This document shows positions 20,727 through 53,465 of a stretch of 64,000 bases of DNA, piece by piece. Position 1 is the first letter of the stretch. Every line of letters begins with the position of its first letter. This DNA is from Acidobacteriaceae bacterium (GTDB lineage Bacteria > Acidobacteriota > Terriglobia > Bryobacterales > Bryobacteraceae), in assembly GCA_019240405.1 (NCBI GenBank), contig JAFAYL010000034.1, forward strand, positions 62,001-126,000, given 5' to 3'. Made by a program: the position numbers and the translations under genes. The notes beneath the pieces were generated by a model. The model was not told where the DNA came from. It did not search any database and was given only the letters and a program-made list of their open reading frames with translations.

Positions 20727-20736
20727 AAGCATCGAA

Positions 20737-22863: not shown

Positions 22864-22873
22864 TTGGCAAAAT

Positions 22874-25348: not shown

Positions 25349-25362
25349 GAGTTCTCTCCAAA

Positions 25363-26598: not shown

Positions 26599-26602
26599 GC
26601 GA

Positions 26603-27379
26603 ATGGCCAAGAACCTTTTCGATCTCTCCGGCCGGGTCGCTGTGGTGATGGGTGGCACAACTGGGATTGGAAGAACGCTGGCGCTGGCGCTTGCAAATGC
26701 GGGAGCCGACGTGGTTGCAAGCGGGCGGCGGGAAGCTCAGCTTCAAGAAGTTGCAGACGAAATAGGGAAGCTCGGGCGTAGAACCTTCGTGCAGCCCGCA
26801 GATGTTTCGAAACGCGAGTCGATCGACAAGCTGCGCGATGCGATTCTTGAGCGTCTTGGGCGCGCGGATATCCTGATCAACTGCGCGGGACAAATCCTGA
26901 GGAAGCGGACTGTCACAGTCACGGAAAGTGAATGGAGCGCAATTCTGGACGTGAATCTCATGGGGATGCTGCGCGCTTGCCAAAGCTTTCACGATTCACT
27001 TGCGGCGAGCGGGCGAGGCCGCATCATCAACATTGCATCGGTGAGCGCTTACGCAAGCTTTCTGGAGGTAACGCCGTATTCAGCTTCGAAAGCGGGTGTG
27101 CTTGGGTTAACGCGCAGCTTGGCGGTGGAATGGGCGCGCGACGGCATCAACATCAACGCGATTGCGCCGGGCGTGTTTCGTACAGAACTCAATGCGGCTC
27201 TTCTCGACGGAACGGGGCGTGGCCGTGAATTGCTGATGCGCACGCCGATGAAGCGTTTTGGAGATGTTCGGGAGCTTGCTGGGGCGGCGATCTTGCTTGC
27301 TTCGGATGCAGCGAGTTTTATCACGGGTCAATGCATCGTGGTGGACGGCGGCTTTCTCGCATCGGGCGTTAATAGTTGA
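26603..27379 (+). CDS. SDR family oxidoreductase (KduD / fructuronate-reductase-like)
   Basis: 258 residues, classical short-chain dehydrogenase. Cofactor loop MGGTTGIGR near residues 15-23 (first Gly of TGxxxGxG replaced by M), NCAG at about 94, catalytic S146, Y159 and K163 (Y-SAS-K), and the C-terminal TGQCIVVDGGF typical of sugar-acid SDRs such as 2-deoxy-D-gluconate 3-dehydrogenase (KduD) and gluconate 5-dehydrogenase. R38 after GADVVASGRR suggests NADP(H) preference. Being 4 bases after uxaE, a role in uronate catabolism is likely; the exact substrate is inference. Confidence 0.88.
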   Translation: MAKNLFDLSGRVAVVMGGTTGIGRTLALALANAGADVVASGRREAQLQEVADEIGKLGRRTFVQPADVSKRESIDKLRDAILERLGRADILINCAGQILRKRTVTVTESEWSAILDVNLMGMLRACQSFHDSLAASGRGRIINIASVSAYASFLEVTPYSASKAGVLGLTRSLAVEWARDGININAIAPGVFRTELNAALLDGTGRGRELLMRTPMKRFGDVRELAGAAILLASDAASFITGQCIVVDGGFLASGVNS

Positions 27380-27466
27380 TCATGAAGATTTTTTGGTTAT
27401 TGAGCCAGTAGAGGGACCACGGTGGTTGATTGCGCAACGGGTGCAAGCGTCGCCCACCGGTTAACT

Positions 27467-28846: not shown

Positions 28847-28851
28847 CAGTT

Positions 28852-38061: not shown

Positions 38062-38837
38062 TTCAGCGTCTCCAGGTAGGCAAACACATCGTGGATATCC
38101 GAGTTCCTGTACCTATGCAGCAAATCGAGATGAGCGGCGAGCGGATTATGAATTTCAAATCTGACTTCGTCTACAGACCAGGAGTGATACCAGCCGTCTT
38201 CATCCCTGAGGGCGATCGTGAACTGATCCTGATAGGCGAGCATACCCTTGAAATGGCGGCCCGAGCGCGTTGTAACGGTAGCGATTTTTAGCACGTTCTC
38301 GGGATAAAGAAAACGAGCCTGAAGATCGGCGGGCGCGTATTTATTCGCAATTCCCGCAAGATCTCCCGACGGGGAGTGGCAGCGGCTGCACTGGCCTCTG
38401 CCGTTGAAGAACGCCTTGCCTGCTTGAGCGTTTCCGGTCAGCAAGAGTTTCAAACCGTAGTCGCGAGGGTTTCCGGGAGAGGTACGATCAGACTCCGCAA
38501 GCCGCCAGTGCAAATAACCCACCACATCCGCGATCTGGGTGTCGCTGAGTGGAATCGCAGGCATTCCTTTGGCAGGGCGGCCGTCTCGAATGACAGGCCC
38601 GATGAGATCGCCATTGTTGTCATGGCGGACTAGTGCCGAGCGAATTAGATTCGGTCCTTCCGCGCCTCCATTCGCGCCTGATCCATGGCAGAAGGCGCAG
38701 GTTTGCGCGAATTGAGTCTCACCGCGTTCGACGGGATCGGTCTTCGGGTTCTGCGCAAGGAGCGAGACGGCCCAGCAGAAAGACGCGATTTTATAAGTGC
38801 GAATAACCCTTGAGCTGAGGAATGAGAGGCCGTGCAT
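38058..38837 (-). CDS. Dihaem c-type cytochrome, exported
   Basis: 259 residues from the ATG at 38837 (signal-like hydrophobic stretch IASFCWAVSLLAQ). First haem site CAFCH in a cytochrome c domain with the axial Met in AKGMPAIPLSD; second CSRCH in the stretch GRGQCSRCHSPSGDLAG, followed by a C-terminal region (RSGRHFKGMLAYQDQ, YRNSDIHDVFAYLETLK) typical of the acidobacterial/planctomycete haem-binding domain. The start lies 47 bases inside the phosphofructokinase gene, and the stop overlaps the PQQ dehydrogenase start, so the three genes are one tightly packed operon; the cytochrome is the natural electron acceptor for the quinoprotein. Confidence 0.88.
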   Translation of the reverse strand: MHGLSFLSSRVIRTYKIASFCWAVSLLAQNPKTDPVERGETQFAQTCAFCHGSGANGGAEGPNLIRSALVRHDNNGDLIGPVIRDGRPAKGMPAIPLSDTQIADVVGYLHWRLAESDRTSPGNPRDYGLKLLLTGNAQAGKAFFNGRGQCSRCHSPSGDLAGIANKYAPADLQARFLYPENVLKIATVTTRSGRHFKGMLAYQDQFTIALRDEDGWYHSWSVDEVRFEIHNPLAAHLDLLHRYRNSDIHDVFAYLETLK

Positions 38838-39948
38838 ACGCAAGAAAATCATTTGTGACATCGTTTCCCGCTTCGTTGATCCACTCGCTGGGGAATAGCC
38901 GTTCCTTACAGGCGACCGTTTCTAACGGAGTCAGAAAGGTGCTGGCCTGGTAAGGCGCATTGGAATGGCGGCGAATCGCGATCATCACGCCAGCTTGCCC
39001 CTCTACAGCGGCGCGGATTGCCGCGCGACCACATTCATGGGCTTCGCGTCGATCCAATTCGCTCGTGAGAGGGCCGCAACATCTTCCGAACAGTCCCGGC
39101 TTTTCTGCTCGCGCGCGAAGATTCAGTTTTGCAGAAATTAGACGCGCGACTGTGTGGCCCAGGTTGGATGCGAGGCGGTGGGTCTGGCTTTCGGCTCGAT
39201 CGACATCGGCGCCAAACGGCGCTCCGGTTTTATCGAGTTGCCCTTCACACACCGCAATAAGGACGCGCCCGAGCCGGCGGTAAACGCCCTCCACATCGGC
39301 TGCGATGTTATCTAGGCTGACTGGTCTTTCTGGGAGGTAGATCAGGTGAGGCCCGTCGTCTTCGCGGGTGCGACCGAGCGCTGTGGCCGCCGTTACCCAA
39401 CCAGCGTTTCGGCCCAACACCTCGAGAACCGTAATTGGCGGCGGAAGCGAGCGGTTGTCCTCTCCGATTTCGCGTGCCGCTACTGCAAAAAAATGTGCCG
39501 TCGACGGATAGCCCGGCGTGTGATCGGTGACCGAAAGATCGTTGTCAATCGTCTTGGGAATGCCGATGACTTGGAGATCGTAACCTAGCGAGCGAGCGTC
39601 GCGCGAGATTCGGAGCGCGGTACCCATGGATCCATTGCCACCGGTGTAAAAGATGCAGCGGATGTCATGTTTTTTGAAAATCTCCAGAACGCGCCCGTGA
39701 TCTTCGTCAGAGAGCTTGAACCTACTGGAGCCAAGTGCCGATCCAGGTGAGTTCCCGATAGCGTCAATCAGCCTTTGATCTTGCGTGAGCAGCTCGGTAA
39801 AGCTCTCATCGAGAATCCCGCGTATGCCGAATCGAGCGCCGTATACTTTCGAAAAAATTTCGCAAACCCGCGCTTCAGCGAGCAGCCCGGCGAGACTCGC
39901 ATTAATCACCGATGTGGGTCCGCCGCCGTGCGCCACTATTGCGTTCAT
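38791..39948 (-). CDS. 6-phosphofructokinase family protein (ATP/PPi-type undecided)
   Basis: 385 residues, cytosolic PfkA-family fold: AHGGGPTSVINASLAG at the phosphate-binding start, YTGGNGSMGTALR and PKTIDNDL in the active site, EVLGRNAGW, and CEGQL. The two residues that separate donor types disagree: G106 (ATP-type, E. coli G104) with N105 replacing the Asp, and K132 in PKTIDND (PPi-type, where ATP enzymes have Gly). So donor use cannot be told, and the substrate may not be fructose-6-phosphate. First gene of the operon with cytochrome c and PQQ dehydrogenase; divergent from the AgaS-like operon over a 68-base gap that carries an inverted repeat. Confidence 0.88.
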   Translation of the reverse strand: MNAIVAHGGGPTSVINASLAGLLAEARVCEIFSKVYGARFGIRGILDESFTELLTQDQRLIDAIGNSPGSALGSSRFKLSDEDHGRVLEIFKKHDIRCIFYTGGNGSMGTALRISRDARSLGYDLQVIGIPKTIDNDLSVTDHTPGYPSTAHFFAVAAREIGEDNRSLPPPITVLEVLGRNAGWVTAATALGRTREDDGPHLIYLPERPVSLDNIAADVEGVYRRLGRVLIAVCEGQLDKTGAPFGADVDRAESQTHRLASNLGHTVARLISAKLNLRARAEKPGLFGRCCGPLTSELDRREAHECGRAAIRAAVEGQAGVMIAIRRHSNAPYQASTFLTPLETVACKERLFPSEWINEAGNDVTNDFLAYARPLIPQLKGYSHL

Positions 39949-39964: not shown

Positions 39965-39998
39965 TGCGATAAAGTTATACAAAGCGAAGATTATCGCA
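39965..39998. promoter_or_regulatory. Inverted repeat TGCGATAA-N18-TTATCGCA, candidate operator of the DeoR-type repressor
   Basis: Two perfect 8-base arms (39965-39972 and 39991-39998) lie in the 68-base gap between the phosphofructokinase and propeller genes. The same TTTGCGAT core recurs upstream of the DeoR-type regulator gene at 49692-49711. Position and shared sequence fit a common operator controlling both divergent operons. Confidence 0.5.
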
Positions 39999-40016
39999 AA
40001 ATAAGCAAAGTATCTA

Positions 40017-42305
40017 ATGATTTTGCAAACCGAATGGCGAAAGCGGACGCAGTTCACGATAGTGGGTTGCGCACTGCTTGCGCTCACGTGGGATCTTTAC
40101 GCGGCTCGGCCCGGAAATTTTGAGGTGATCGGTCCCGGAGGCGGGGGCGCCATGTTCAACCCGACGATCAGCCCGCACGATGCGAACACGGTTCTGGTCT
40201 CGTGCGATATGACCGGTTCCTACATAACCCATGACGCCGGAGCTTCGTGGCGCATGTTCAATCTGAGGGGCACCGTCACTTTTTTCGCGTTTGACACAAA
40301 GGGTTCGCGACGCCTGTATGCGGGGGCGACCGGGCTGTGGCGCAGCGATGATCGAGGGCAAACGTGGCAGCTCATTTATCCGAAGCCGTCGTCTGTGAAA
40401 GGCATTCAGATGAATTCAGATCACGCGGACGAAGTGATCGTGGCCGATCCGGATCCGCTCGGCTCGATAACGGCTTTTGCAGTCGATCCGGGAAGCTCGG
40501 GGATCTTGTATGCAGCAGCTTCTAAAGGATCGGCAAATGGATTATTTGTTTCGAGCAATTCCGGCGCAACGTGGAAACAGCTGAATGAACTTTCAGGACC
40601 CGCTCGCCATATCTGGGTGAATCCACAATCGGAATCAGGGAAGAGAGAGGTGATCATTGCGTCCGCGCGTTCGATTAAGGTAAAAAACGCTTCGGGGATG
40701 CGGTCTTATTCAGCACCAGGAGCGCGAACCCTTCTCGATGTGTCGCTCGGTTTTCGAAATGGGGCGGCTGTGATTTATGGCGTCACGGAAGACGCAGCTT
40801 TTGTCTCGAACGATACGGGAGCGAGTTGGCAGAAATGCAACCTGCCGGGAAAAGGGGCTCGAGTGCGGGCCATCGCGACGAGCCTCCATCACCCCGATAC
40901 AGCATATCTCTCGTATAGCGAACTGAAGCTCGATGGCCAAACGTGGGAAGGTGTCGCGAAAACGAATAATTGCGGGAAGAGCTGGACACTCGTATGGAAA
41001 GATGGGCGCGAAACGGCGGCCAACGTACATGATGCGTGGATCACTGAGCGTTTTGGGGCCGACTGGGGCGAGAATCCGCTCATGCTTGCGGTTGCCGATG
41101 ATGATCCGGATCTCTGCTTTGCGACGGATCTAGGCCGAACAATGAAAACCGCCGACGGTGGTCGGTCGTGGAAGGCGGTGTACTCGCGAAAGCTGTCACA
41201 AGGAAGCTGGACGACGACCGGCCTGGATGTCACCACAGATTACGGCGTCCACTTCGATCCGTTCGATCCGAAGCGCCAGTTCATCAGTTACACCGATATT
41301 GGACTCTTCAGAAGCGAAGACGGCGGCAAATCCTGGATGAGCTCGACTGCCGGGGTCCCGCGCGAGTGGTGGAATACAACCTACTGGATCGCTTTCGATC
41401 CCGAGGTCCGAGGGCGAGTATGGAGCGTGAACAGCGGCACGCACGATCTACCGCGTCCAAAAATGTGGCGGAAAAATTCCGTGATGAATTACAAAGGCGG
41501 CGTTTGCCGGAGCGAGAACGGCGGCAAGACATGGATCAAATCGAACGCCGGGATGGAAGAAACAGCCGCGACGCACATTTTGATAGACACCAAGAGCTCG
41601 CCGGGAGCGCGAACCCTTTATGTTGCAGCGTTTGGACGTGGCGTGTACAAGAGCACGGACGGCGGGACTACGTGGAATCTTAAAAACAGCGGCATCGCAG
41701 AGTCACAGCCTTTCGCGTGGCGTCTGGCTCAAGCTTCAAATGGCGTCTTGTACGTAATTCTCGCGCGACGTTCTGAAGATGGCAGCATCGGGAATAACGG
41801 CGATGGGGCCATTTATCGGTCGCTTGATGGCGCGGAACACTGGGCCTCTGTTCCGCTGCCCCAAGGAGTGAATGGACCGCACGGGTTGGCGATCGATCCT
41901 AATGCTTCCGACAGGCTATATCTAGCCGCTTGGGCGCGCAAGGCTGGGATGCATGGCGAAGGCGGAGGAATCTATTTATCGACCGATTCGGGAAGGACAT
42001 GGAGGTGCGTGCTGGATCGTGACCACCATGTTTACGATGTCACGATTGACCCGCTCGATCCCAATGTGCTGTATGCAGTCGGGTTCGAATCCTCGGCGTG
42101 GCGGTCAATTGATCGTGGTGAACATTGGAGCCGCATAGCTGGATTTAATTTCAAGTGGGGTCATCGCGTTATTCCGGATCCGGCAGACAAAGAGTCTGTT
42201 TATGTCACGACATTTGGCGGTGGCGTGTGGCACGGTGAGGTCAACGCCCCACCCCGGCTGCTCGATATTGTGACCCCCATTCTGGAACCTGGACGTTCCC
42301 AGTGA
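40017..42305 (+). CDS. Exported BNR/GH74-like double beta-propeller protein
   Basis: 762 residues. N-terminal signal (about 8-29, TQFTIVGCALLALTWDLYAA). The rest is built of about twelve Asp-boxes (for example THDAGASW, SDDRGQTW, SEDGGKSW, SENGGKTW, STDGGTTW, STDSGRTW), one degenerate (SLDGAEHW), arranged as in GH74 xyloglucanases and sortilin-type propellers. I cannot point to the GH74 catalytic Asp pair, so hydrolase activity is uncertain. First gene of a run in which each of the next three genes overlaps its predecessor by 4 bases; it would act outside on the polymer whose sugars the following enzymes use. Confidence 0.82.
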   Translation: MILQTEWRKRTQFTIVGCALLALTWDLYAARPGNFEVIGPGGGGAMFNPTISPHDANTVLVSCDMTGSYITHDAGASWRMFNLRGTVTFFAFDTKGSRRLYAGATGLWRSDDRGQTWQLIYPKPSSVKGIQMNSDHADEVIVADPDPLGSITAFAVDPGSSGILYAAASKGSANGLFVSSNSGATWKQLNELSGPARHIWVNPQSESGKREVIIASARSIKVKNASGMRSYSAPGARTLLDVSLGFRNGAAVIYGVTEDAAFVSNDTGASWQKCNLPGKGARVRAIATSLHHPDTAYLSYSELKLDGQTWEGVAKTNNCGKSWTLVWKDGRETAANVHDAWITERFGADWGENPLMLAVADDDPDLCFATDLGRTMKTADGGRSWKAVYSRKLSQGSWTTTGLDVTTDYGVHFDPFDPKRQFISYTDIGLFRSEDGGKSWMSSTAGVPREWWNTTYWIAFDPEVRGRVWSVNSGTHDLPRPKMWRKNSVMNYKGGVCRSENGGKTWIKSNAGMEETAATHILIDTKSSPGARTLYVAAFGRGVYKSTDGGTTWNLKNSGIAESQPFAWRLAQASNGVLYVILARRSEDGSIGNNGDGAIYRSLDGAEHWASVPLPQGVNGPHGLAIDPNASDRLYLAAWARKAGMHGEGGGIYLSTDSGRTWRCVLDRDHHVYDVTIDPLDPNVLYAVGFESSAWRSIDRGEHWSRIAGFNFKWGHRVIPDPADKESVYVTTFGGGVWHGEVNAPPRLLDIVTPILEPGRSQ

Positions 42306-43480
42306 GCCACCCGAGCGCAAGCAATCTTCTTACTACGCCTGAGGCGGATCAGGAGCGTGGCGGCTATGTTCACACTCTGCGGGAAATTCGCCAGCAGCCA
42401 TTCACCGTTCTCGATACATGCGAGCGAATGCTTGCGCGCGCGTACGATCTGAAGCAATGCTTGGAGATTGTGCGAGCCGTTGTGTTCACCGGGTCCGGCA
42501 GCTCAGAGTATGTCGGGAGTTGCGTGCAGTCCGCAATTCAAGCCGAGCTGGGCATCGTCACGCAAACAATCGGAAGTGGAACATTGTTGACGCGCGGCGG
42601 GCGCGCGCTTCCTCCGCTACGGCCGTTGCTGCTTGTATCGCTGGCAAGGTCGGGCGATAGTCCCGAAAGTGGTGCTGTAGTTCAGTTGTTGTTAGAAACC
42701 GAACCGGAGATCCGGCATCTCGCAGTGACCTGCAACGCAATTGGAAAGCTCGTTACGCGACATGAAAGCGATCCACGGGTCTCGATTATTGCGCTGGACG
42801 ATCGCACGAATGACCGAAGCCTTGTAATGACAAGCAGCTTTACTGGTCTGGCGATTGCTGCGCGGTCGCTCGGATTTCTCGCCGACCCTGAGAGCTACCG
42901 GGCTTTATGCGGCCGCTTGAGCCGCATCTTGGGGCATGTGATCAATAATCACTTCGACAGGCTCGAATCCGCGATCCAGTGGAATTTCACCCGAGCAGTC
43001 TTCCTGGGCAGCGGTTCGAACTTCGCTGCAGCGCGAGAGGCCGGGCTCAAAATGCTCGAAATGACCGCCGGTCGTGTGGCAACACTCTCCGAATCTTATC
43101 TGGCTTTGCGCCACGGCCCGATGAGTTTTCTGAATCGCGAGTCGCTGGCCGTGTGCTTCCTGTCTTCCGAACCGGTGACGCGCCTCTATGAGGCTGACTT
43201 GATCCGCGAATTGGATCGCAAGAAACTTTCACGAATCAAAGTAATCATTGGCGAAGACATACCGCGCGATCTTCTGAATGCAAAAGATGTAGCCATCGAG
43301 TGTCCGCGTCTGGGGGCGATGGGCGAGGACGCTTGTCTGGTGCATGTCGTCGTTGGTCAATTATTGGCTTTTTTTCGCTGTCTTAAAGAAGGCCTTCGTC
43401 CGGATTCTCCATCTGAGAGCGGAGTCATTAATCGCGTCGTAGGCGGGTTCCGTTTACACACCGACGGAAAAGGACCATGA
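42302..43480 (+). CDS. SIS-domain sugar isomerase/deaminase (AgaS-like)
   Basis: 392 residues, GTG start in a 4-base overlap. Two SIS domains: first with VVFTGSGSSEYVG and SLARSGDSPES, second with FLGSGSNFAAAREAGLKMLE, and the end block ESYLALRHGPMSFLN that is diagnostic of AgaS/GlmS isomerase domains. AgaS deaminates and isomerises galactosamine-6-phosphate to tagatose-6-phosphate in the cytosol. Followed by a PfkB kinase and controlled by a DeoR/AgaR-like gene, the same combination as in aga loci. Substrate is inferred from family and context only. Confidence 0.85.
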   Translation: MSHPSASNLLTTPEADQERGGYVHTLREIRQQPFTVLDTCERMLARAYDLKQCLEIVRAVVFTGSGSSEYVGSCVQSAIQAELGIVTQTIGSGTLLTRGGRALPPLRPLLLVSLARSGDSPESGAVVQLLLETEPEIRHLAVTCNAIGKLVTRHESDPRVSIIALDDRTNDRSLVMTSSFTGLAIAARSLGFLADPESYRALCGRLSRILGHVINNHFDRLESAIQWNFTRAVFLGSGSNFAAAREAGLKMLEMTAGRVATLSESYLALRHGPMSFLNRESLAVCFLSSEPVTRLYEADLIRELDRKKLSRIKVIIGEDIPRDLLNAKDVAIECPRLGAMGEDACLVHVVVGQLLAFFRCLKEGLRPDSPSESGVINRVVGGFRLHTDGKGP

Positions 43481-44433
43481 AGATTCTAATCGCTGGCGAG
43501 CTGAACGTCGACCTGGTTCTGCAGAATCCGCAATCCTTTCCAATTCCCGGGCGCGAAACGTTGGTCGAGAATGTTTCGCTCACGCTTGGTAGCTCCTCTG
43601 CGATTTGCGCGGCGGCTCTGATGAAACTCGCGGAGCAAGTCACTTTCGTCGGGAAGGTTGGTTGCGACGCCTGGGGGGATTTTTGCGTGCAGGCGGTTCA
43701 AGGCTTTGGAGTCGATTGCTCTCTGGTGAAGCGCGATGAATCGCTTACAACGGGTATCACCGTCTCGATTACATCGGCGACAGACCGCGCGCTCCTGACG
43801 TATCTTGGTTCCATCGCATCGTTAAGGGCGGATGACGTGCGCGATGAGGATTTGCGAACACAGAGACATCTTCATGTTTCTTCGTTCTTTCTTCAGCAGG
43901 CATTGCGTCCGGGGTTGAAATCGTTGCTGGCAAGAGCGCATCAATGCGGGCTCACGACGTCTCTCGATCCTGGTTTCGATCCCGACGAGAGCTGGGGCAA
44001 GGATTTAATCGACACACTATGTGAGGTGGATGTTTTTCTGCCAAACGAGGTAGAGCTTGCGGGAATTTCCGGGCGGAATCTGCAGGTCGAGGCGCTGCGG
44101 GCTCTCGATAATGGACGAACGATTATTGTCGCGAAGCTGGGTCGCAATGGATGCATGGCGATCCGAAATGGCGAGATTCTTACGGCGCCAGCTTTTTCCG
44201 TCAATCCTGTCGACACCACCGGCGCGGGTGACACATTCAACGCCGGATTCCTGCATGCGTGGCTGCGAGGCGGCGACTTGCGGGAAGCAATGATCTTTGG
44301 AGCTGCTTGCGGGGCTTTGTCGACGCTCGGGGTGGGCGGCACCTCGAATCAGCCGACAAGCGAACAAGCGCGGGAGTTCATTGCAGGTCATTCTCGCAGC
44401 GCCGCTCATCATGAGGCGGGAGCAACGATATGA
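43477..44433 (+). CDS. PfkB-family carbohydrate kinase
   Basis: 318 residues in the ribokinase fold. N-terminal ILIAGELNVDLVLQNP and the C-terminal signature VDTTGAGDTFNAGF with catalytic base D252 are clear. The early GG-A-N motif is replaced by LGSSSAICAAALM, so the sugar pocket differs from ribokinase. In an AgaS operon it would phosphorylate the ketose phosphate (tagatose-6-phosphate-kinase-like role) or a free sugar; which is unknown. It overlaps the genes on both sides by 4 bases. Confidence 0.87.
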   Translation: MKILIAGELNVDLVLQNPQSFPIPGRETLVENVSLTLGSSSAICAAALMKLAEQVTFVGKVGCDAWGDFCVQAVQGFGVDCSLVKRDESLTTGITVSITSATDRALLTYLGSIASLRADDVRDEDLRTQRHLHVSSFFLQQALRPGLKSLLARAHQCGLTTSLDPGFDPDESWGKDLIDTLCEVDVFLPNEVELAGISGRNLQVEALRALDNGRTIIVAKLGRNGCMAIRNGEILTAPAFSVNPVDTTGAGDTFNAGFLHAWLRGGDLREAMIFGAACGALSTLGVGGTSNQPTSEQAREFIAGHSRSAAHHEAGATI

Positions 44434-45623
44434 CAAGCCGGCGCGAGTGGCTCTACGGAATGAGCATGGCTTTACCTTGCGCCAGCCAAGCACGCGAGTC
44501 TGCCATGAGAGACGAAGCACCGGATACAGCCTTAAAGCTGGTGGATTATGAACCGCAGAGCATGTTGCATGTGCCTGAAACACACGCCGAGCGCTCACGC
44601 TACCCGGCGATCGATATTCACACCCACATTTCCATTTCGGCCAAGGCCGTACACGGAGTCCCAGTCGCGTCCAAGCGTCACTTCCTTGCGCCTCCCGAAG
44701 ACCTTCTCCCGTGCATGGAGAGAAAAAATCTTCGAGCGCTGGTTAATCTGACTGGCGGGTTTGGTGACGGTCTGAAGCAGGCGATCGGTAAATATGATGC
44801 CGCGCATCCGGGACGTTTCTATACGTTTACCGAGCCTTGCTACGGCCGCTTTCAGGAACCTGATTATCCGCGGGTGCAAGCGCAAATGATTCAAGACGCG
44901 CGCACGGCCGGAGCACGAGGGCTGAAAATACTCAAGACGCTTGGATTATTTTTGCGCGAGAACGTCGCCTCCGGCGCTCTCGTTAAAGTGGACGATCCGC
45001 GGTTTGATCCCATGTGGGACGCGTGCGGTCAGCTCCAGATGCCAGTGGCGATCCACGTTTCGGATCCGATCGCATTCTTCAGACCGACCGATCGGTTCAA
45101 TGAGCGCTATGAAGAACTGGCAAAACATCCTGATTGGTCGTTTTACGATCACGATTTCCCGAGCAATGCCGAACTTTTGGAGGCGCGGAACCGCGTAATC
45201 GCAAGACACCCGAAGACGCAGTTTTTGGTTCTCCACGTCGGAAATTTCGCCGAGGATCTGGAGAACGTCTCGCAGGCACTTGACCGCTTTCCCAACATGA
45301 CGATCGATATTGCCGCGCGAATCGGCGAGCTAGGCAGGCAGCCGAGGACAGCGCGCAAATTTTTTGAAAAGTATCAGGACCGGATACTCTTCGGCACGGA
45401 TGCGACGCCGCACGGAACGGAAGTTCCTCAGCAGTATTTCTGCGATAAGCTTTATGAGATCTATTTTCGGTTCCTCCAAACGGAGGACGAGTACTTCAAC
45501 TATGCACCTGCGCGCGTACCGCCTCAAGGCCGGTGGCATATTTATGGAATCGGATTGCCGGATGAGATTTTGCGGAGAGTTTATAGCGGCAATGCAGAAC
45601 GTCTATTGCGCATAACGGCTTAA
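44430..45623 (+). CDS. Amidohydrolase family 2 (PF04909-like) metal-dependent hydrolase, probable Tat export
   Basis: 397 residues. N-terminus MTSRREWLYGMSMALPCAS looks like a Tat signal. The TIM-barrel hydrolase shows the metal motif IDIHTHISIS (H-x-H) at about residues 62-71, IHVSDP, LHVGNFAED, and the late Asp in ILFGTDATPHG. Members act as decarboxylases, lactonases or hydrolases on small carbonyl compounds. It is not NagA-like (no deacetylase motifs), so it is not an obvious N-acetyl-amino-sugar deacetylase. The next gene starts immediately after its stop. Confidence 0.83.
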   Translation: MTSRREWLYGMSMALPCASQARESAMRDEAPDTALKLVDYEPQSMLHVPETHAERSRYPAIDIHTHISISAKAVHGVPVASKRHFLAPPEDLLPCMERKNLRALVNLTGGFGDGLKQAIGKYDAAHPGRFYTFTEPCYGRFQEPDYPRVQAQMIQDARTAGARGLKILKTLGLFLRENVASGALVKVDDPRFDPMWDACGQLQMPVAIHVSDPIAFFRPTDRFNERYEELAKHPDWSFYDHDFPSNAELLEARNRVIARHPKTQFLVLHVGNFAEDLENVSQALDRFPNMTIDIAARIGELGRQPRTARKFFEKYQDRILFGTDATPHGTEVPQQYFCDKLYEIYFRFLQTEDEYFNYAPARVPPQGRWHIYGIGLPDEILRRVYSGNAERLLRITA

Positions 45624-48600
45624 ATGCGATTCCGGAGAGTCGCAGTCTTTCTCTTGCCGGCAGTGTTTCTCTGTTTGGCCCGCGGCGAAGTGCGTGTTTG
45701 GGAAGGCACACTCACGTTGCCCACCTATGAAGAAGGCCTGCCCGATCCAAATCCTCCCTTCGATGTTTTTGCAACCATCCGGTTCAACTATCCGTATACG
45801 TTGCGCGAAAACTTGACCAGCGAGCGCGTCAATCACGAATGGCGCGCGATCTATTTGGAAAACGAATTTCTGAAGTGCTCGGTGTTGCCTGATATTGGCG
45901 GTCACCTCTATACGTGCCTTGACAAGCTGAGCGGCCAGCCGATGTTCTATGCGAATCCTTCAATCAAGAAGGCCAACATCGGATATCGCGGCGCTTGGGC
46001 GGCCTTCGGCGTCGAATTCAATTTCCCCGTTTCGCATAACTGGGTCTCGATGTCACCGGTGAATTTCGCTTACGCGAAGCATCAAGACGGCAGCGCATCC
46101 GTCACGGTGGGCAACATCGACCGGGTTTATGGAATGGAGTGGATGGTCGAGATGATTCTGCGCCCCGGCTCAACCGTGCTCGAAGAACGCGTGACGCTGA
46201 GTAACCGCAGCGACGTGAGACACCGCTTTTACTGGTGGAATAACGGCGCGGTCCAGGTATGGGATGACTCGCACGTCGAATATCCAATGCGATTCGCAGC
46301 GAGTCACGGATTCACCGAAGTACAGCCTTGGCCGGTAGATCCCGAGGGCACCGATCTGAGCGTAATCCGGAACCAGACAAAGGGGCCGGTTTCCCTATTC
46401 GTCCATGGCAGTCGCGAGCCGTTTATGGCGATCTGGAATCCACATACAAGTACCGGGACGGTTCACTTCGCCGAGTATGCCGACCTTCCAGCAAAGAAAA
46501 TTTGGTCGTGGGGCGTGGATGCGGATGGCCTCGATTGGCGGAAGGCGCTTTCGGATAACGAGAGCGCCTATGCCGAGGTGCAAGCCGGATTATTTCGCAA
46601 TCAGGAGACGTACGCATTTCTTGAGCCGCTGCAAACGATTCGCTTTTCCGAGCACTGGATGCCGGTGCGCGAGACCGGCGGAGTATCGCGTGCCAATCTA
46701 GCGGGCGTCGTGCACTTGGGTCGCAACGGCAACGTCTTGCGGGCGGCGTTCAACGCGAATCAGCAGATTTCAGCAGCATCGATTCGCTTGTTCGATGGCA
46801 CGAGCGTGCTCGCTCAAGAAAAGGTAAATTTGGCTCCGGCGCGGACATGGACACGCGAGATTCCGATCCCAGATGCAGAGCACCGAGTGACGTTCGAATT
46901 ACAAGATGCAAAAGGCGCGATTCTCCTCCACCATACGGAAGGCGAGTATGACTGGACCCCGGCAGATCAGATCCGCTTAGGCCCGCAGCCGTCGCGCAGT
47001 GTTCCTCCAGACGGCAAGAAAACTGAAGACGATTGGGTCGAGCTGGGTGAGGACGAGGAGCTCAATGGAAAAACTCTTCAAGCTCTTGAGACGTATCAGC
47101 GAGGTCTCGCCAGATTTCCGAAATCGCTCGCGCTTAGCAGGACTGCGGGTCGTGTTGCGGCTTGCCTTAACCGGTATGAAGAGGCGATTCGCTATCTCGA
47201 ACCGGTGCACGCCGCCGATACGTCTGATCCTGAGGTTTCGTATTATCTCGGGCTAGCGTATGACGATCTGGGTCAATTACGGAAAGCGCAGGAAGCATTC
47301 GAGGCCGCGTACCGAATGCCGCAGTTTCGAGCGGCAGGCGCTCTCAAGCTAGGGGAGTTGCTGGCGCGTGAAAATCAGCTCGAGAAAGCGGAGCACTACC
47401 TGAATGAAGCTCTGCGTGTTCAACCAAGCAGCCAGCGCGCCGCCGAGGAAGTCCTGGCCATTCGCCGGGCTCTCGGCCAGGAACAGCCTGCGCGAGAATT
47501 GGGCAGCCAATGGTTGCGTCAATACCCTCTCAGCCATTTTCTGCGAGAAGAGCTTGGCAATCCGGACTTGCCCGCCTTGGGCGCGGATGCCTACCGGGTG
47601 CTCGGCGTGTCTGCGGAGTACATGCGTCTAGGGCTTTATCGCAAGGCGCTCGCAGTCTTGTCGCGAACCTATCCTAAATCAGCGGCGGATCGCAGCGAGC
47701 CCGGAAGTCTTCTCCCGCAGAATCACCCGATAGTCGCGTATTACCGCGCTTATTGCAAAGAGAAGCTGGGCTTGGATTCCAGTGAGGACTACACAGCCGC
47801 TTCGAAGCTTTCGACCCTCTATGTCTTTCCGAATCGCGCGGAAACCGTTCACGTCTTGAAAGCGGCTCTGGAGGCCAGGCCCTCGGACGGAACCGCGCAC
47901 TACTTGCTCGGGACGTTTCTCTTTTCCCGAGGAATGACAGATGCTGCACTTCACGAATGGGACGAGGCCCGAAAGGTCGCGCCGCGCACGCCTGTGCTTC
48001 ACGCCGATATCGGCCTCGCGCTGCTTCGGGTCCGGCGAGATCCTGAGGGAGCGCTTTCCGCTTTTGAGGACGGCCTCGCTGCTGATGCCAAAAATCCGCA
48101 ACTATACGTCGGCATAGATCAGGCGCTCAGTATCCTGAAGCGGCCGCCTAAAGAACGTATTCGCGCGCTCGAGCGTTATCCCGATCAAGCTGAAATACCA
48201 AGCAATCTGGTTTATGAGCTTGCTCTCAATCGCGCGGAAGCAGGAGATTTCGATGGCGCCAAACGCTCGTTCCAAAATCGATTTTTCCCGCGTGAAGAGG
48301 GAGGCACAAACGTCCGGCAGGTCTGGATTGAAGTACTTGTGTTGCAGTCGCTCTCGCTTCAGCGAAGCGGGAAATGCGAAAGCGCCATTTCTATCGCAAA
48401 CGGCCTGGGCGCAGAAGTGCCAGGCCTCGCATTCACGCGTGACGGCCTGTCAACCATCGTCGATTCCGCCAGAACCCAGTATTTGGTCGGCTTGATTTTT
48501 TCAGTTTGCGGCCACGCCGATGAAGGGCGCAGACATTTTGAACGGGCGGCCGCGCAGACGCACACAGATCAGATCACGTGGGCTTACTCGGCCGCAAGAA

Positions 48601-48854
48601 AGTTAGGCGCGGCGTCTAAGAATGACTGGACCGAAAAGCTGGAGCGCGCTCTTGCCCAAATGCAGAGCCGCATGACGGAGCAGAACAGCGCGTCAATGTA
48701 CACCATCGGTTGCCTGGAAGCATCGCTGGGGCGCGGCACTGACGCCGATAACGCATTCCAGGAAGCGCTCCTTCTTCCCGACCGGATGATGGCGCATCAT
48801 CTCAGCAGGCTGGCACGGGCCGGCGCGCTACCGCCAGACTCTAAACCAGAGTGA
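45624..48854 (+). CDS. DUF5107 + tetratricopeptide repeat protein, exported
   Basis: 1076 residues starting directly after the amidohydrolase stop. Signal peptide (about 1-21, VAVFLLPAVFLCLARG). DUF5107 spans roughly 25-360: a galactose-mutarotase-like beta-sandwich (EFLKCSVLPDIGGHLYTC, SHNWVSMSPV, RFYWWNNGAVQVW, GTVHFAEYADLPAKKIWSWG). From about 480 to the end TPR repeats follow (ALETYQRGLARFPKSL, AIRYLEPVHAADTS, AEHYLNEALRVQPSS, ALHEWDEARKVAP). Such proteins are found in glycan-degradation loci of soil bacteria; their activity is not established. Its last 14 bases overlap the convergent regulator gene. Confidence 0.88.
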   Translation: MRFRRVAVFLLPAVFLCLARGEVRVWEGTLTLPTYEEGLPDPNPPFDVFATIRFNYPYTLRENLTSERVNHEWRAIYLENEFLKCSVLPDIGGHLYTCLDKLSGQPMFYANPSIKKANIGYRGAWAAFGVEFNFPVSHNWVSMSPVNFAYAKHQDGSASVTVGNIDRVYGMEWMVEMILRPGSTVLEERVTLSNRSDVRHRFYWWNNGAVQVWDDSHVEYPMRFAASHGFTEVQPWPVDPEGTDLSVIRNQTKGPVSLFVHGSREPFMAIWNPHTSTGTVHFAEYADLPAKKIWSWGVDADGLDWRKALSDNESAYAEVQAGLFRNQETYAFLEPLQTIRFSEHWMPVRETGGVSRANLAGVVHLGRNGNVLRAAFNANQQISAASIRLFDGTSVLAQEKVNLAPARTWTREIPIPDAEHRVTFELQDAKGAILLHHTEGEYDWTPADQIRLGPQPSRSVPPDGKKTEDDWVELGEDEELNGKTLQALETYQRGLARFPKSLALSRTAGRVAACLNRYEEAIRYLEPVHAADTSDPEVSYYLGLAYDDLGQLRKAQEAFEAAYRMPQFRAAGALKLGELLARENQLEKAEHYLNEALRVQPSSQRAAEEVLAIRRALGQEQPARELGSQWLRQYPLSHFLREELGNPDLPALGADAYRVLGVSAEYMRLGLYRKALAVLSRTYPKSAADRSEPGSLLPQNHPIVAYYRAYCKEKLGLDSSEDYTAASKLSTLYVFPNRAETVHVLKAALEARPSDGTAHYLLGTFLFSRGMTDAALHEWDEARKVAPRTPVLHADIGLALLRVRRDPEGALSAFEDGLAADAKNPQLYVGIDQALSILKRPPKERIRALERYPDQAEIPSNLVYELALNRAEAGDFDGAKRSFQNRFFPREEGGTNVRQVWIEVLVLQSLSLQRSGKCESAISIANGLGAEVPGLAFTRDGLSTIVDSARTQYLVGLIFSVCGHADEGRRHFERAAAQTHTDQITWAYSAARKLGAASKNDWTEKLERALAQMQSRMTEQNSASMYTIGCLEASLGRGTDADNAFQEALLLPDRMMAHHLSRLARAGALPPDSKPE

Positions 48855-49629
48855 CCTGGATTCCGCGCTTTCTGAGTGCGTCGGTGAACTCAGCCGGAGC
48901 ACGCCGATCCGTGATTAGCCGGTCGATTTGCTTCATGGGACCGATGCGCGAAACGCTTTGCCGTCCGAGTTTGCTCGAATCCGCGACAACAGTGATCTCC
49001 TTTGCAACGCGGGCCATAGAACCATTCAACTGTGCTTCTAATACGTCGGGTGTCGAAGGACCCGCTTGGACATCGAAGCCATCCACGGCAAGAAAGAAGC
49101 GGTCGGCGTGGAGATCTTTGAGCATTGCCTCGGCCTGCGGCCCGACTAGCGAATGAGAGACTGGGCGCAAAAGCCCGCCAATCACAATAACCGAAATACC
49201 CGGAGCGTCGGCGAGCTCAAGGGCGATATTGAGGGCGTGCGTAATTACCGTTAACGGGTTTAGCTTCAGCTCTTTGAGATGGGCTGCGATCTCGGCTGTA
49301 GTGGTTCCCGAGTCCAAAATAATGGTTTCACCGGGCCGGACGAGTTCCGCCGCCGCACGCCCGATTCGGATCTTTTCCGAGCGATGAAGGGTCTCCTTTA
49401 AGCGGAGAGGATAATCCGGAGCTTGTTCCCGTTTTACTGCGCCGCCGTGAGATCGCAGGATAATGCCGTTTGTTGACAGCGCGTCCAAATCGGCGCGCAC
49501 CGTAACCGCTGAAACTCCAAATCGCCCGGCTAGATCCGTGATAGTGACTTGACCATCTTTGTCAATGATTTGCAATATCTTCCGCCGGCGCTCTTCAGCG
49601 AGGAGGCGTGAATTCTTAGCGGGGGGCAT
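48841..49629 (-). CDS. DeoR/GlpR-family transcriptional repressor (AgaR-like)
   Basis: 262 residues from the ATG at 49629, preceded by GAGG at a good distance; a longer frame to 49674 has no better start. N-terminal DeoR helix-turn-helix (RRRKILQIIDKDGQVTITDL, SAVTVRADLDAL) about residues 11-60, then the DeoRC sensor domain with DSGTTTAEIA (sugar-phosphate binding), GGLLRPVSHSLVG and FLAVDGFD. Regulators of this type respond to phosphorylated sugars. It faces the AgaS-like operon and shares repeat motifs with the divergent promoter at 39965-39998, so it is the likely repressor of that operon, of itself and perhaps of the next receptor gene. Confidence 0.93.
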   Translation of the reverse strand: MPPAKNSRLLAEERRRKILQIIDKDGQVTITDLAGRFGVSAVTVRADLDALSTNGIILRSHGGAVKREQAPDYPLRLKETLHRSEKIRIGRAAAELVRPGETIILDSGTTTAEIAAHLKELKLNPLTVITHALNIALELADAPGISVIVIGGLLRPVSHSLVGPQAEAMLKDLHADRFFLAVDGFDVQAGPSTPDVLEAQLNGSMARVAKEITVVADSSKLGRQSVSRIGPMKQIDRLITDRRAPAEFTDALRKRGIQVTLV

Positions 49630-49677
49630 TTGTGCCTCGTTTTGAAGTGTAGTGAGCCCTGCCGGGAGCGTCAAATC

Positions 49678-49730
49678 CTAATCGTATCCTGTTTGCGATT
49701 AGATTGCGATTTTTTCTCTTACTTGCGTTT
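49678..49730. promoter_or_regulatory. Cluster of TTGCGATT repeats, candidate DeoR-type operator
   Basis: TTGCGATT occurs at 49693-49700 and 49704-49711 (period 11), with a variant TTGCGTTT at 49723-49730; CTAATCG (49678-49684) and CGATTAG (49696-49702) form a 7-base inverted repeat. It lies between the repressor gene and the Oar receptor gene, and the TTTGCGAT core matches the repeat at 39991-40000. Confidence 0.55.
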
Positions 49731-49751
49731 TTCTTTCATTCGTGGTAAAAC
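49723..49751 (+). promoter_or_regulatory. Possible sigma-70 promoter of the Oar receptor gene
   Basis: TTGCGT (49723-49728) and TAAAAC (49746-49751) are spaced by 17 bases. The -35 box is inside the third TTGCGTTT repeat, so repressor binding would block it. The ribosome site GGAGGGG follows before the ATG at 49782. Confidence 0.35.
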
Positions 49752-49781: not shown

Positions 49782-52700
49782 ATGGAAGTCTCAAAGCTGT
49801 TTCGTGTAGTCGCAATCGCAGTGATGGCCGGGCTGAGCGCCGGCTTGGTTTTTGCCCAAGGAACGGATCTCGGAACCATCCGGGGAAACGTCACCGATGT
49901 GTCCGGGGCGGTCATCCCGAATGCGCGCGTTGTCGTTACAGACTTGGCGACAAATTCGACGCGCGAAACCAAGACGAACGGCGCGGGCGACTATGAAGTT
50001 TTCGGCGTGAATGCAGGACGATATAGCGTTACTGTATCGTCGGCCGGCCTCGAAACCGTAGAGATCACGAATTTAGCCATAAATGGAAGTGAGACCGTAA
50101 CGGCCGACGCGAAACTTCAAGTCTCGAAGACACAGCAAAGCGTGGTTGTCGAGGCCGAAAATGCGCCGATTCACACGGAAGATCAAACCATCAGCAGCAG
50201 TTTGAATAACCAGGCGGTAATCGAGCTACCCCGCGACAGCCGCGATATTTACCAGTTCCTTTACCTGAATCCGAACATTACGCAGGCGGATGAACCGGGC
50301 ACATTCAAGTTTCTAGGGTTTCAGAGTTACGGAGGAAGTTTCTCACTTGACGGCCAGCGCTCCAACGGGGGAATTTTCGGGCAACCCACGTCAAGCGAAC
50401 CCTCGCTAGAGGCAGTGGGCGAGCTGAACATTTTGTCAAACGATTTCAGCGCCGAATACGCCGGGATCGCTACGATCCGCGTAACTACGAAACGTGGAAC
50501 GGACCAGTATCATGGGTCGCTGTTCTATAACAACCGGAACTCCGCTCTCGCTGCCTGGCCGCTCCAGGACAAGATTGCCGCCGCAAGCTTTGCACCCACG
50601 CCGTTCCAAAGCAAGTATCCCGCCCCTTTTTTTAATCTCAACGACGTCGGAGCATCTTTCGGAGGACCCGTACCGGCCTTAAGAAAAAACACCTGGTTCT
50701 TCGCGGCTTATGAACACAACTCGACCGTCGAGCCTGATACGGTCGAGTCGAACAATCTTCCCCATCCATCGCTTTTGCAGGGGAATTTCTCGTTAGTCGA
50801 TGACTCGATCAAACCTGCGGTTCCGGCCTCAATTACTCTGACACCTCAAGAAATTGCGACCGATACCGTTGGCGGCTCAGGCCAGCAATTCATTCAAATC
50901 CCACAGCGTCTGCTTAACCCCTTAGTTCAAAATCTCATCGCAAAATATTTCACACCGATCGGCCTCTCCGCGCCTATCGATCCGACAACGGGCCGTGTTC
51001 CGGGTTTTGTCAATCTGGTTTCGGCATCCGCGTTTCAGGACCTGGGGACGTTGCGCCTGGATCACGATTTTTCCGAGCGAGATCACGTTTTCGTGACTTA
51101 CAACACGTCCGCACTCTCTTCTTCTGGAACGCCCGCAGAAGACAATTCGCCGAACACTGGTTTTGTCGGGCAGCCGTACACCGGTCTCGGGCTCCTCGGA
51201 ACCGACAGGAGAAACCACGCCGTTGCAGCCTCCTATACGCGCGTGATCAGGCCAAATATAGTCAACGAACTACGTGGTGGATTCAACATGGAAGACCGTT
51301 TCCTCCACAGCAATACGACGCTGGGCGGCTTTCTATCGAGCATCGGGTTTAGCCAGGATGAGATCAATGCTTACGGCGCAATCGTCGGACCCGCTGAGCT
51401 CAACACCCACGGCCAACCGGCCATCAGCTTTGGCGGCACTTTCGCGACTTTTCCGAACGGCGGCCGCTCAACAGATCGTCCGGAAAACCAAAAACTCCAG
51501 ACTTTCGGCGATACGTTCAACTGGGTCATCGGCACTCACAATCTGAAAATGGGCGCGGATTTCGTGCGCAATGAAGCTGTGGACGGATTCGTAGAAAATC
51601 GCGGTAATGTTCGCGGATTGATGACGTACAGCGGTTCGGGAACCACCCCTCTCGCCGATTGGCTTATGGGGTTGCCGCCCAAGAGTGTGAGTTATGTCGG
51701 TTCTGTCCGGCCGCCGCTAAATGTGCACAATTGGGAAACCGGCTACTTCTTTGAAGACGATTGGAAAGTAACTTCGCACTTTACGCTCAATCTTGGCGTT
51801 CGATATGAGCTGATTACGCCGTTCATCGAGGCTAACGATCTGCTTGCGAACTTCGATCCGAATCTCAATGACCCTGTTACTGGGCAGCCTGGCGTATTTG
51901 TCATTCCTTCCAACAGAACACTGAGCTATCTGGATCCTCGGATTGTCAATTACGGATACGTCCTTGCGAGCCAGGCTGGAGTTGGCCGCGGCCTCGTTAA
52001 TCCGGACACGAACAACATCGCACCTCGAATTGGGTTCGCATGGCGGATCGGCGAAAAGAACGTGCTGCGCGGCGGATGGGGTGTTTACTATCCGACATCT
52101 GCAGCGCAAGGCATTCGGGACCCCATGGCGAGCGCTCCATTCAACCCGGGTGTTACGTACCGCGCAACGGCGACTGCTCCGCTCGGCGGCTGGCCGGGCA
52201 ATCCGGAAGGCGGCACCCTGCTGAGCGGGGGAGTGATTCGCGGCGCGGGAAACGTCCCTACAGCAAATGCTGTTCCGTTTCACCTCCAGCAGCCGCGGAT
52301 TCAGCAATACAACATCACCTTTGAGCGCGACCTCGGATGGAGCACCGCGCTGCGCGTTTCCTACCTTGGCACTGCCATGCATGGACTGATCGCCGGAAAG
52401 GATCTCGATGAGATTCCGCCAAGCAACAATCCTTTTGGCACCACAGTGGGCGACGGTGTCACACCCTGCGATCCTTACAATCTGGGGAATTGTGCACTCT
52501 CGCCCCAAGATTTGGCGCGACTGCCGCTTCCGGGGCTGCAGGAATACGTATTGAGTTATGGGAATTTCGGGCACGGATTGATGAATGCTTTCCAGACCCA
52601 GGTTGAACACCGATTCGCGAATCACCTCATGTTCAGCGCTGCATATACATACATGAGGGAGAACTCGACGGGAGCTGATACAGGCAACTCCAGTCTGGGA

Positions 52701-53465
52701 AGCGTAGCGTACAACATCTTCAACCCGAACGCCGACTACGGACCTGAAGCGTTCGTTTCCAGGCATCGGTTCGTGGCTTACGGCGTGTATGATCTGCCTG
52801 TTGGACGCGATCGCCAGTTCGGATCAGCCATGCCGCGCTGGGCCGACGCGTTTATCGGCGGCTGGCAAACCACGTTCAACATGTTCGCGAAATCCGGCAC
52901 GGGCTTTACGCCTTTCTGGGTTTGCGACGATTGCGATCCGGTTGAACCCGGCAATATTGCCGTCGGCTCAGCCGATCCCGTGGGTGACTTCGGCTGTGAG
53001 CCCTGCTTCCGTCCCACGATCATCAGCAACAATTACAACCAGAAGAGCGGTGATTATATTTGGAACGACAACGCCTTCGGACCGCCGCCGGTCGGGGGAG
53101 ACCTATTCAGCAACAGTACAATCGCCAAGCGTAATTTGCTGTGGGGTCCCGGAACCTGGGGCGTCAATCTGGGCGTGCACAAGTACTTCAGCTTCGGGGA
53201 GCGACTAAAAGCCGAGTTGGGCGCAGATATCGATAATCTGTTCAATCATCCGCTCCTTTCGCCAGATCTGAATTACGGCGGTGGTGGAGGCCCATTCGCA
53301 ATGGTGGGAGATTTCAACCTTCAGGTAGACCAAACCACTGGTCAGTTACTTCCGATCACTGTGTTCAACCGAAATCCCTCATTTGGGCAGTTGGTCAACA
53401 GCTTTCCCCAGGAGGGAATCGATAGCCGGCGCGCGATTCGTCTGCGGTTACGGATTACGTTCTGA
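49782..53465 (+). CDS. Oar-like TonB-dependent outer-membrane receptor with carboxypeptidase-regulatory domain (second)
   Basis: 1227 residues, strong ribosome site (GGAGGGG). Signal peptide about 1-26 (VIAVMAGLSAGLVFAQ-like); carboxypeptidase-regulatory domain about 30-115 (GTIRGNVTDVSGAVIPNARV); plug about 130-260 (NNQAVIELPRDSRDIYQFL, YGGSFSLDGQRSNGG); beta-barrel to the C-terminal aromatic RLRLRITF. Late in the barrel two CxxC pairs occur (C1048/C1051 and C1072/C1075), probably in an outer loop. Lying next to the DeoR-type repressor and its operator, it may import oligosaccharides for the AgaS-like pathway. Confidence 0.93.
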   Translation: MEVSKLFRVVAIAVMAGLSAGLVFAQGTDLGTIRGNVTDVSGAVIPNARVVVTDLATNSTRETKTNGAGDYEVFGVNAGRYSVTVSSAGLETVEITNLAINGSETVTADAKLQVSKTQQSVVVEAENAPIHTEDQTISSSLNNQAVIELPRDSRDIYQFLYLNPNITQADEPGTFKFLGFQSYGGSFSLDGQRSNGGIFGQPTSSEPSLEAVGELNILSNDFSAEYAGIATIRVTTKRGTDQYHGSLFYNNRNSALAAWPLQDKIAAASFAPTPFQSKYPAPFFNLNDVGASFGGPVPALRKNTWFFAAYEHNSTVEPDTVESNNLPHPSLLQGNFSLVDDSIKPAVPASITLTPQEIATDTVGGSGQQFIQIPQRLLNPLVQNLIAKYFTPIGLSAPIDPTTGRVPGFVNLVSASAFQDLGTLRLDHDFSERDHVFVTYNTSALSSSGTPAEDNSPNTGFVGQPYTGLGLLGTDRRNHAVAASYTRVIRPNIVNELRGGFNMEDRFLHSNTTLGGFLSSIGFSQDEINAYGAIVGPAELNTHGQPAISFGGTFATFPNGGRSTDRPENQKLQTFGDTFNWVIGTHNLKMGADFVRNEAVDGFVENRGNVRGLMTYSGSGTTPLADWLMGLPPKSVSYVGSVRPPLNVHNWETGYFFEDDWKVTSHFTLNLGVRYELITPFIEANDLLANFDPNLNDPVTGQPGVFVIPSNRTLSYLDPRIVNYGYVLASQAGVGRGLVNPDTNNIAPRIGFAWRIGEKNVLRGGWGVYYPTSAAQGIRDPMASAPFNPGVTYRATATAPLGGWPGNPEGGTLLSGGVIRGAGNVPTANAVPFHLQQPRIQQYNITFERDLGWSTALRVSYLGTAMHGLIAGKDLDEIPPSNNPFGTTVGDGVTPCDPYNLGNCALSPQDLARLPLPGLQEYVLSYGNFGHGLMNAFQTQVEHRFANHLMFSAAYTYMRENSTGADTGNSSLGSVAYNIFNPNADYGPEAFVSRHRFVAYGVYDLPVGRDRQFGSAMPRWADAFIGGWQTTFNMFAKSGTGFTPFWVCDDCDPVEPGNIAVGSADPVGDFGCEPCFRPTIISNNYNQKSGDYIWNDNAFGPPPVGGDLFSNSTIAKRNLLWGPGTWGVNLGVHKYFSFGERLKAELGADIDNLFNHPLLSPDLNYGGGGGPFAMVGDFNLQVDQTTGQLLPITVFNRNPSFGQLVNSFPQEGIDSRRAIRLRLRITF

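Follow-up and report, generated by a model that had tools for sequence, protein, structure and literature searches.

Which substrate is served by an operon that couples a sugar isomerase and a sugar kinase to a set of exported proteins? This question is raised by a 64,000-nucleotide stretch of DNA from an Acidobacteriaceae bacterium (contig JAFAYL010000034.1, positions 62,001 to 126,000; hereafter the window), whose plus strand carries five consecutive genes between 40017 and 48854. The first (40017..42305) was called from its open reading frame (ORF), profile matches and predicted structure as an exported 12-Asp-box propeller protein, predicted to be GH74-like with two propellers. It is followed by an AgaS-type SIS protein with a GTG start (42302..43480), a PfkB/ribokinase-type kinase (43477..44433; PF00294, 153 bits), an exported Tat-type Amidohydro_2 metal hydrolase (44430..45623; PF04909, 96 bits) and a DUF5107-TPR protein with a signal-like N-terminus (45624..48854; PF17128, 206 bits, plus TPRs). 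Export and Tat signals were assigned by eye from the translations. ORF coordinates confirmed this arrangement, which an earlier sequence-only reading had described, and the junction DNA contains the three 4-base stop/start overlaps and the one abutting junction that it had noted. Likewise, 12 stretches of the propeller fit the Asp-box pattern [ST]x[DN]xGxx[WF], and family scans, which covered the window genes between 13890 and 60874, returned Sortilin-Vps10/BNR propeller, SIS, PfkB, Amidohydro_2, DUF5107 with TPRs, and DeoR. The same reading had suggested a route for an amino-sugar or ketose-phosphate polymer. We found nothing in support of a ketose-phosphate polymer, and the amino-sugar proposal was strengthened by the AgaR model score, an operator type that related loci have in common with E. 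coli, retained active-site residues and GH109-type genes near AgaS. We consider it probable that this is an AgaR-controlled locus for the catabolism of galactosamine (GalN) or N-acetylgalactosamine (GalNAc), equipped with exported proteins that handle a polymer.

The regulator is of a type whose substrate class is known. A DeoR-family gene on the minus strand (48841..49674) ends against the five-gene operon, and its product passes the NCBIfam AgaR equivalog NF040755 (264.7 bits, cut-off 260); it is 39% identical to E. coli AgaR. An operator motif was learned by expectation-maximisation on 98 upstream regions of AgaS-related loci, a set assembled without PfkB upstreams and without five near-duplicate loci. 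The motif is a T-rich direct repeat, atTTTCgTTTgCTTTCgTTt, with a log-likelihood of 245.5 compared with 87.8-100.5 in 8 dinucleotide-shuffled sets (run with 8 restarts where the real set had 12; the shuffles ignore the shared ancestry of the loci). We then left the window out of the training set (92 regions) and scanned the 16-kb aga region of E. coli with the new profile: all 7 best sites fell in AgaR promoters, with 3 upstream of agaR/kbaZ and 4 (two overlapping) upstream of agaS. Of its 6 best sites there, 6 lay in promoters; permuted profiles averaged 2.4, and 0 of 60 reached 6. E. coli AgaR binds the promoters of agaR, kbaZ and agaS, as passages of PMC3668189 report. The operator type of the related loci is therefore common to E. 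coli AgaR. In the window, the two intergenic regions of the locus took 4 of the 6 sites that the same window-free profile scored highest (permuted mean 0.68; 0/40 reached 4). One predicted operator lies between the PFK (phosphofructokinase) gene described below and the propeller gene (39992..40011, minus strand; 15.8 bits, the third-best site of the window). Three overlapping predicted operators (49702..49740, plus strand; starts at 49702, 49711 and 49721, scores 13.0, 16.7 and 13.9) lie between agaR and the gene for a TonB-dependent receptor (TBDR).

The converse scan, in which a profile built from the E. coli sites was run over the upstream regions of related loci (L090-L092 also left out), gave a more graded picture. 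All control windows set the 95th percentile at 8.0 and the 99th at 11.5, and AT-richer windows set the 95th at 11.6. Scores above the 99th percentile were obtained upstream of AgaS in 8/32 cases, the propeller in 6/20, the TBDR in 5/18, exported protein F1 (described below) in 4/9, DUF5107 in 3/8, the amidohydrolase in 3/18 and the PFK in 1/20, and for neither PfkB (0/30) nor a cytosolic-type amidohydrolase (0/7); these counts are not independent, since divergent genes share upstream DNA. Compared with the AT-richer controls, and among gene classes with more than one member, the distributions were higher only for AgaS (P = 0.011) and the TBDR (P = 0.017). Thus, part of the related loci carry E. 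coli-like operators. In the window itself, the agaR/TBDR region scored 11.6, at about the 99th percentile of all controls and about the 95th of the AT-richer ones, and the PFK/propeller region scored 9.4, above the all-control 95th percentile and below the AT-richer one.

The SIS protein agrees with this assignment. Its Pfam SIS score is 23.2 bits, under the cut-off of 25, and it matches TIGR02815 agaS_fam over residues 23-386 (249.8 bits, E = 4e-74), which is 175 bits above its second-best NCBIfam family, GlmD (74.6 bits). Solved AgaS-type relatives align along the full length (PDB 3odp, E = 4.5e-51; 3c3j, E = 7.9e-48). In an alignment that left out the 5 of 42 AgaS frames shorter than 300 aa, S303, S349, E481, K485, E488 and H504 (GlmS numbering) were retained in 37/37 homologues, and the set G301, S303, R348, S349, S352, E481, K485, E488 and H504 was common to these homologues and E. 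coli AgaS. We take these positions to be the active-site and phosphate-binding residues of SIS isomerases. The nearest homologues found sit in other genera at no more than 54% identity, and the three copies from the same genus are 40-41% identical. Judged by these residues, its chemistry is likely the same as that of AgaS, and we propose that it is a galactosamine-6-phosphate (GalN-6-P) deaminase/isomerase, the activity proposed for E. coli AgaS in passages of PMC3668189.

The association of the genes was followed in 200 genomes sampled from the order, the window's own genome included, with presence called at E = 1e-20 for AgaS and 1e-60 for the propeller, PFK and amidohydrolase; at most five propeller candidates were scored per genome, so propeller absences are soft. 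AgaS was matched in 43 genomes, the propeller in 36 and this PFK type in 45. The PFK occurred in 29/43 AgaS genomes and 16/157 others (Fisher P = 1.8e-13; by genus 14/22 against 8/53, P = 6e-5), and the propeller in 20/43 and 16/157 (P = 5e-7; by genus 13/22 against 9/53, P = 4.9e-4). Counting by genus lessens the effect of relatedness and does not remove it. We examined 42 AgaS loci, many of which end at contig ends and 7 of which come from one genus (g69); three AgaS genomes (G077, G167 and G172) were left out. Within ~9.5 kb of AgaS lay PfkB in 33 loci, the PFK in 25, the amidohydrolase in 15, AgaR in 13, the TBDR in 11, the propeller and a GH109-type gene in 8 each, the cytosolic-type amidohydrolase in 7, F1 in 5 and DUF5107 in 4. 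PfkB was directly downstream of AgaS on the same strand in 32/42, many of them related. An exact conservation of the five-gene order, put forward earlier as a test of the operon, is rejected for the 42 loci examined, many of them truncated by contig ends: the complete order was seen in the window and in no other of the remaining 41. Gene content and several adjacencies did recur in shuffled form. For example, L040 and L041 (one genus) carry all five families in a different order, and L066 has the run propeller, AXE1, DUF4832, AgaS with a divergent PFK. A compact AgaS-PfkB-PFK run, which may represent the pathway's minimal core, is seen in L070, L072, L074 and L076-L079; the AgaS proteins of these loci form a more distant group, with 37-44% identity to that of the window. 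GH109 is listed among the alpha-GalNAcase families in passages of PMC12118421. Of the eight GH109-type loci, seven are from one genus, in which the gene comes after PfkB; L049, with a GH109_C gene beside AgaS-PfkB, was confirmed by Pfam PF21252 and the rest are labelled by similarity.

Two kinases adjoin the isomerase. The PfkB protein matched 23 NCBIfam kinase models, every one below cut-off, led by ribose-1-phosphate kinase (135 bits), ribokinase (128) and 5-dehydro-2-deoxygluconokinase (127); we propose it as a candidate GalN/GalNAc 6-kinase. The second kinase, absent from the sequence-only reading, is encoded divergently 68 bases upstream of the operon (38791..39948, minus strand) and exceeds the cut-off of the pyrophosphate (PPi)-dependent PFK model PRK14072 (411 against 273 bits). 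It carries N103, K124, P162 and L249 (E. coli PfkA numbering). N103, K124 and L249 are invariant across this protein and 22 aligned relatives, G104 is found in 18/23 and Arg 162 in just 4/23; R162 is retained in the genome's other PFK, which is of a different type. Given the meaning that we assume for PfkA positions 104 and 124, this pattern accords with a change of substrate or of phosphoryl donor and proves neither. The divergent protein is our candidate for a tagatose-6-phosphate 1-kinase, and two kinases at one locus would fit a route independent of the phosphotransferase system (PTS), since such a route needs two. The earlier statement that deacetylase and aldolase are missing held for the cluster, as no GalNAc-6-P deacetylase was found among the scanned window genes, and failed for the genome. 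Other contigs encode a LacD-type aldolase (PRK12858 tagatose-1,6-diphosphate aldolase, 473 bits, cut-off 184; 341 bits on the lacD equivalog itself, under its 432) and a NagA-like protein, whose 212 bits narrowly miss the cut-off of 225.65. NagA is able to substitute for AgaA in E. coli (PMC3668189). The genome had no match to the class II tagatose-bisphosphate aldolase family PF01116, which 11/14 control genomes do match; a search for class I fructose-bisphosphate aldolase (PF00274) was uninformative because no control genome matched.

The exported proteins are less readily assigned. The propeller matched the profile of the GH74 structure 2cn2 (E = 2.5e-17, not collinear), and its predicted structure (pLDDT 80.7) retrieved GH74 or xyloglucan-hydrolase chains in 25/25 best Foldseek rows (TM up to 0.64). 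Structural alignment (VIA) gave Z = 28.0 at 4.1 Å over 624 residues, while for single propellers that are unrelated Z comes near 27, over ~285 residues. The model thus has a GH74-type two-propeller fold, judged without a count of blades. Asp 64 is paired with an Asp of GH74 chains, significantly in 6p2k (23 bits) and also in insignificant alignments with 7kn8 and 2cn2; we take this Asp to be a catalytic residue of GH74. Unlike in the GH74 xyloglucanases, the second catalytic Asp was not located, identity is ~14-20% and the genomic context differs. The NCBIfam F510_1955 glycosylhydrolase model, which has a cut-off of 175, gave only 134 bits. In the amidohydrolase, an N-terminal twin Arg was seen, and HTH, H209, H269 and D324 are invariant in the alignment; no significant relative was found among solved structures. 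The DUF5107 protein has a solved relative in 5cd6 (E = 3.4e-29). Homologues of recurrent partner genes, also absent from the sequence-only reading, lie at 27422-30396. Among them is exported protein F1 (28852..30396, minus strand), ~59% identical to genes of other genomes that adjoin AgaS or the propeller gene. Its ORF extends to 30765 and homology begins near 30396. Its model is of low to moderate quality (pLDDT 61.7; residues 1-174 under 50) with generic TIM-barrel glycosidase matches, so that it may be a TIM-barrel glycosidase partner. A ceramidase-like identity for F1 was rejected, since F1 has no Pfam match and the F1 of L041 shares 18% identity with the Ceramidase_alk gene of L042. The DUF4832 protein (27422..28846, plus strand; PF16116, 68.6 bits) and an AXE1-type esterase (20737..22860, plus strand; PF05448, 46.8 bits) are possible partners, with homologues in the L066 run described above (54% identity for AXE1).

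From these observations we infer the following route. The exported propeller, F1, DUF5107-TPR protein and amidohydrolase, with the TonB-type receptor, would be responsible for binding and cutting a galactosamine-containing polymer and for the import of its fragments. Inside the cell, PfkB would phosphorylate the sugar at C6; an acetylated sugar would be deacetylated by the NagA-like protein, whose gene lies elsewhere. AgaS would then convert GalN-6-P to tagatose-6-phosphate and ammonia, the PPi-type PFK would form tagatose-1,6-bisphosphate, and the LacD-type aldolase encoded elsewhere would cleave this to trioses. AgaR would repress from operators flanking the locus on both sides.

Several results weigh against this proposal. 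The SIS protein scores below the curated TIGR02815 cut-off (249.8 against 529.2 bits) and therefore falls outside the strict AgaS family, and it is only ~30% identical to E. coli AgaS. PfkB fits a kinase of phosphorylated sugars (ribose-1-phosphate kinase) slightly better than ribokinase, and the operon has neither a deacetylase nor an inner-membrane transporter. This PFK was not matched in 14/43 AgaS genomes, and its co-occurrence with the propeller is not significant (11 shared genomes, P = 0.15). The amidohydrolase is present in 130/200 genomes and therefore only weakly linked to the locus. One genome outside the 43 with AgaS (G060, locus L102) combines strong operators with genes for AgaR, TBDR, F1, propeller and PfkB; the exported set may serve another route too. 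As for the operators, scores in the window are moderate: the best, 16.7, compares with a mean maximum of 16.1 in random 64-kb sequence, and overall the window has as many sites as random sequence would give. A pattern search of the window's own genome, which recovers one window site only, returned 58 matches against 61 for the reversed pattern, i.e. no excess. In the reverse test, AgaR's own upstream exceeded the 99th percentile in just 2/13 loci, and no excess over the AT-richer controls was seen for the propeller (P = 0.24), F1 (P = 0.25) or DUF5107 (P = 0.36).

Three other explanations draw on the same evidence, and one keeps the pathway and reverses the kinases: PfkB would be a LacC-like tagatose-6-phosphate kinase and the PFK would act in glycolysis or on another sugar. 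LacC is the textbook tagatose-6-phosphate kinase (passages of PMC12118421), AgaS-PfkB loci occur in genomes without this PFK (e.g. G103, G105 and G156), and the best PfkB model is a kinase of phosphorylated sugars. However, PfkB scored only 57 bits on the LacC/1-PFK-type hexose kinase model TIGR03168 (cut-off 216), with no LacC model among its NCBIfam matches. Furthermore, another, separate PFK is encoded in the genome, and AgaS is paired with the PFK without a nearby PfkB in L055, L056, L067, L068 and L071. We regard the reversal as a minority possibility, if the leading one of the three. It is quite unlikely, in our estimate, that the same regulon acts mainly on glucosamine-6-phosphate (GlcN-6-P), with an SIS protein working like archaeal GlmD and the PFK on fructose-6-phosphate. 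N-acetylglucosamine polymers are common, GlmD is the runner-up family for the SIS protein, a NagA-like protein is encoded in the genome, and G060 combines the exported set with no AgaS match. Against this stand the margin of agaS_fam over GlmD and the AgaR type of both regulator and operator. The presence of a LacD-type aldolase in a genome with no PF01116 match also counts against it, although a LacD-type enzyme might serve fructose-bisphosphate as well. In addition, E. coli AgaS is 27-fold less active on GlcN-6-P, according to passages of PMC3668189.

Catabolism of Amadori compounds, with PfkB phosphorylating fructosamine as FrlD does and the SIS protein acting as a deglycase like FrlB, is highly improbable. 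An SIS protein with a sugar kinase is the FrlB-FrlD pairing, an amino-acid permease gene adjoins the SIS gene in L059 and L073, and fructoselysine 6-kinase is among the weaker PfkB matches (76 bits, cut-off 247). Yet the SIS protein is 13% identical to FrlB, position 485 is Lys in 37/37 homologues and Thr in FrlB, and the regulation is of AgaR type; on identity and position 485 we rejected an FrlB-like deglycase. No deglycase model appeared among the NCBIfam matches, in a library that was not checked for such a model.

The galactosamine regulon proposed here is thus known in kind, and its enzymatic setting is new. As in the E. coli aga (kba/aga) regulon, an AgaR-type repressor, with the same operator type in the related loci, is found together with an AgaS-type protein that has the same aligned active-site residues. 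In contrast to E. coli, the part of the window that was scanned lacks PTS genes (the genome was not searched for PTS), and the genome lacks a class II aldolase of the KbaY type. Present instead are PfkB and a PPi-type PFK, and exported proteins share the operon. The non-PTS Aga pathway of Shewanella comprises AgaP, AgaK, AgaAII, AgaS and omp-Aga, and passages of PMC2996990 show the same use of a kinase rather than a PTS and an outer membrane protein in the gene set. It differs in that the kinase here is PfkB-type (the family of AgaK was not compared) and the cluster lacks AgaA and has a PPi-type PFK. No title in the open-licence literature that we found (titles and abstract starts) names the locus. 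The operator type ties exported families that are uncharacterised (GH74-fold propeller, F1 and DUF5107-TPR) to a regulator of known substrate class, and this link gives testable substrates for them. If the proposal is true, AgaR and its operator are conserved from E. coli to distant soil-type bacteria, while the enzymes around AgaS have been replaced. A bolder version is unlikely, though worth stating: a system degrading a galactosamine polymer (e.g. one like fungal galactosaminogalactan, or a bacterial exopolysaccharide), in which the propeller and F1 would found new hydrolase families, the exported amidohydrolase would be a periplasmic deacetylase, and PfkB and PPi-PFK would form a new kinase pair.

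Beyond agaR, the TonB-dependent-type outer membrane protein (49782..53465, plus strand; PF25183, 506 bits, and CarboxypepD_reg) is a possible oligosaccharide receptor, and a 52-53% identical receptor adjoins AgaR in L043 and L102. Convergent to its gene is that of an FG-GAP/ASPIC-UnbV protein (53479-55188). A protein of the same type follows the receptor at a second AgaR-like gene in the genome (G000:C56:194824-195615; L140:8825-9616), whose product is 49% identical and scores 223 bits where the AgaR model requires 260. Just behind this gene, at the junction with a TBDR gene, lies the best match of the operator pattern in the genome, the sole one with a single mismatch, and TPR, FG-GAP/ASPIC and alpha-L-fucosidase-family genes follow. 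This second locus is probably a sister glycan regulon. In the window, a sugar cluster at 17225-27379 encodes two MocA-type oxidoreductases, a NagB-like protein, the AXE1 esterase, a UxaE-like tagaturonate epimerase, an SDR and an MFS transporter nearest to the D-galactonate type, and may handle hexuronates of the same polymer. Finally, an acido-empty-quinoprotein group A gene (TIGR04528, 791 bits against a cut-off of 650), of a protein type that points to an acidobacterial host, and a cytochrome c gene (36493-38861) sit behind the PFK gene on the same strand.

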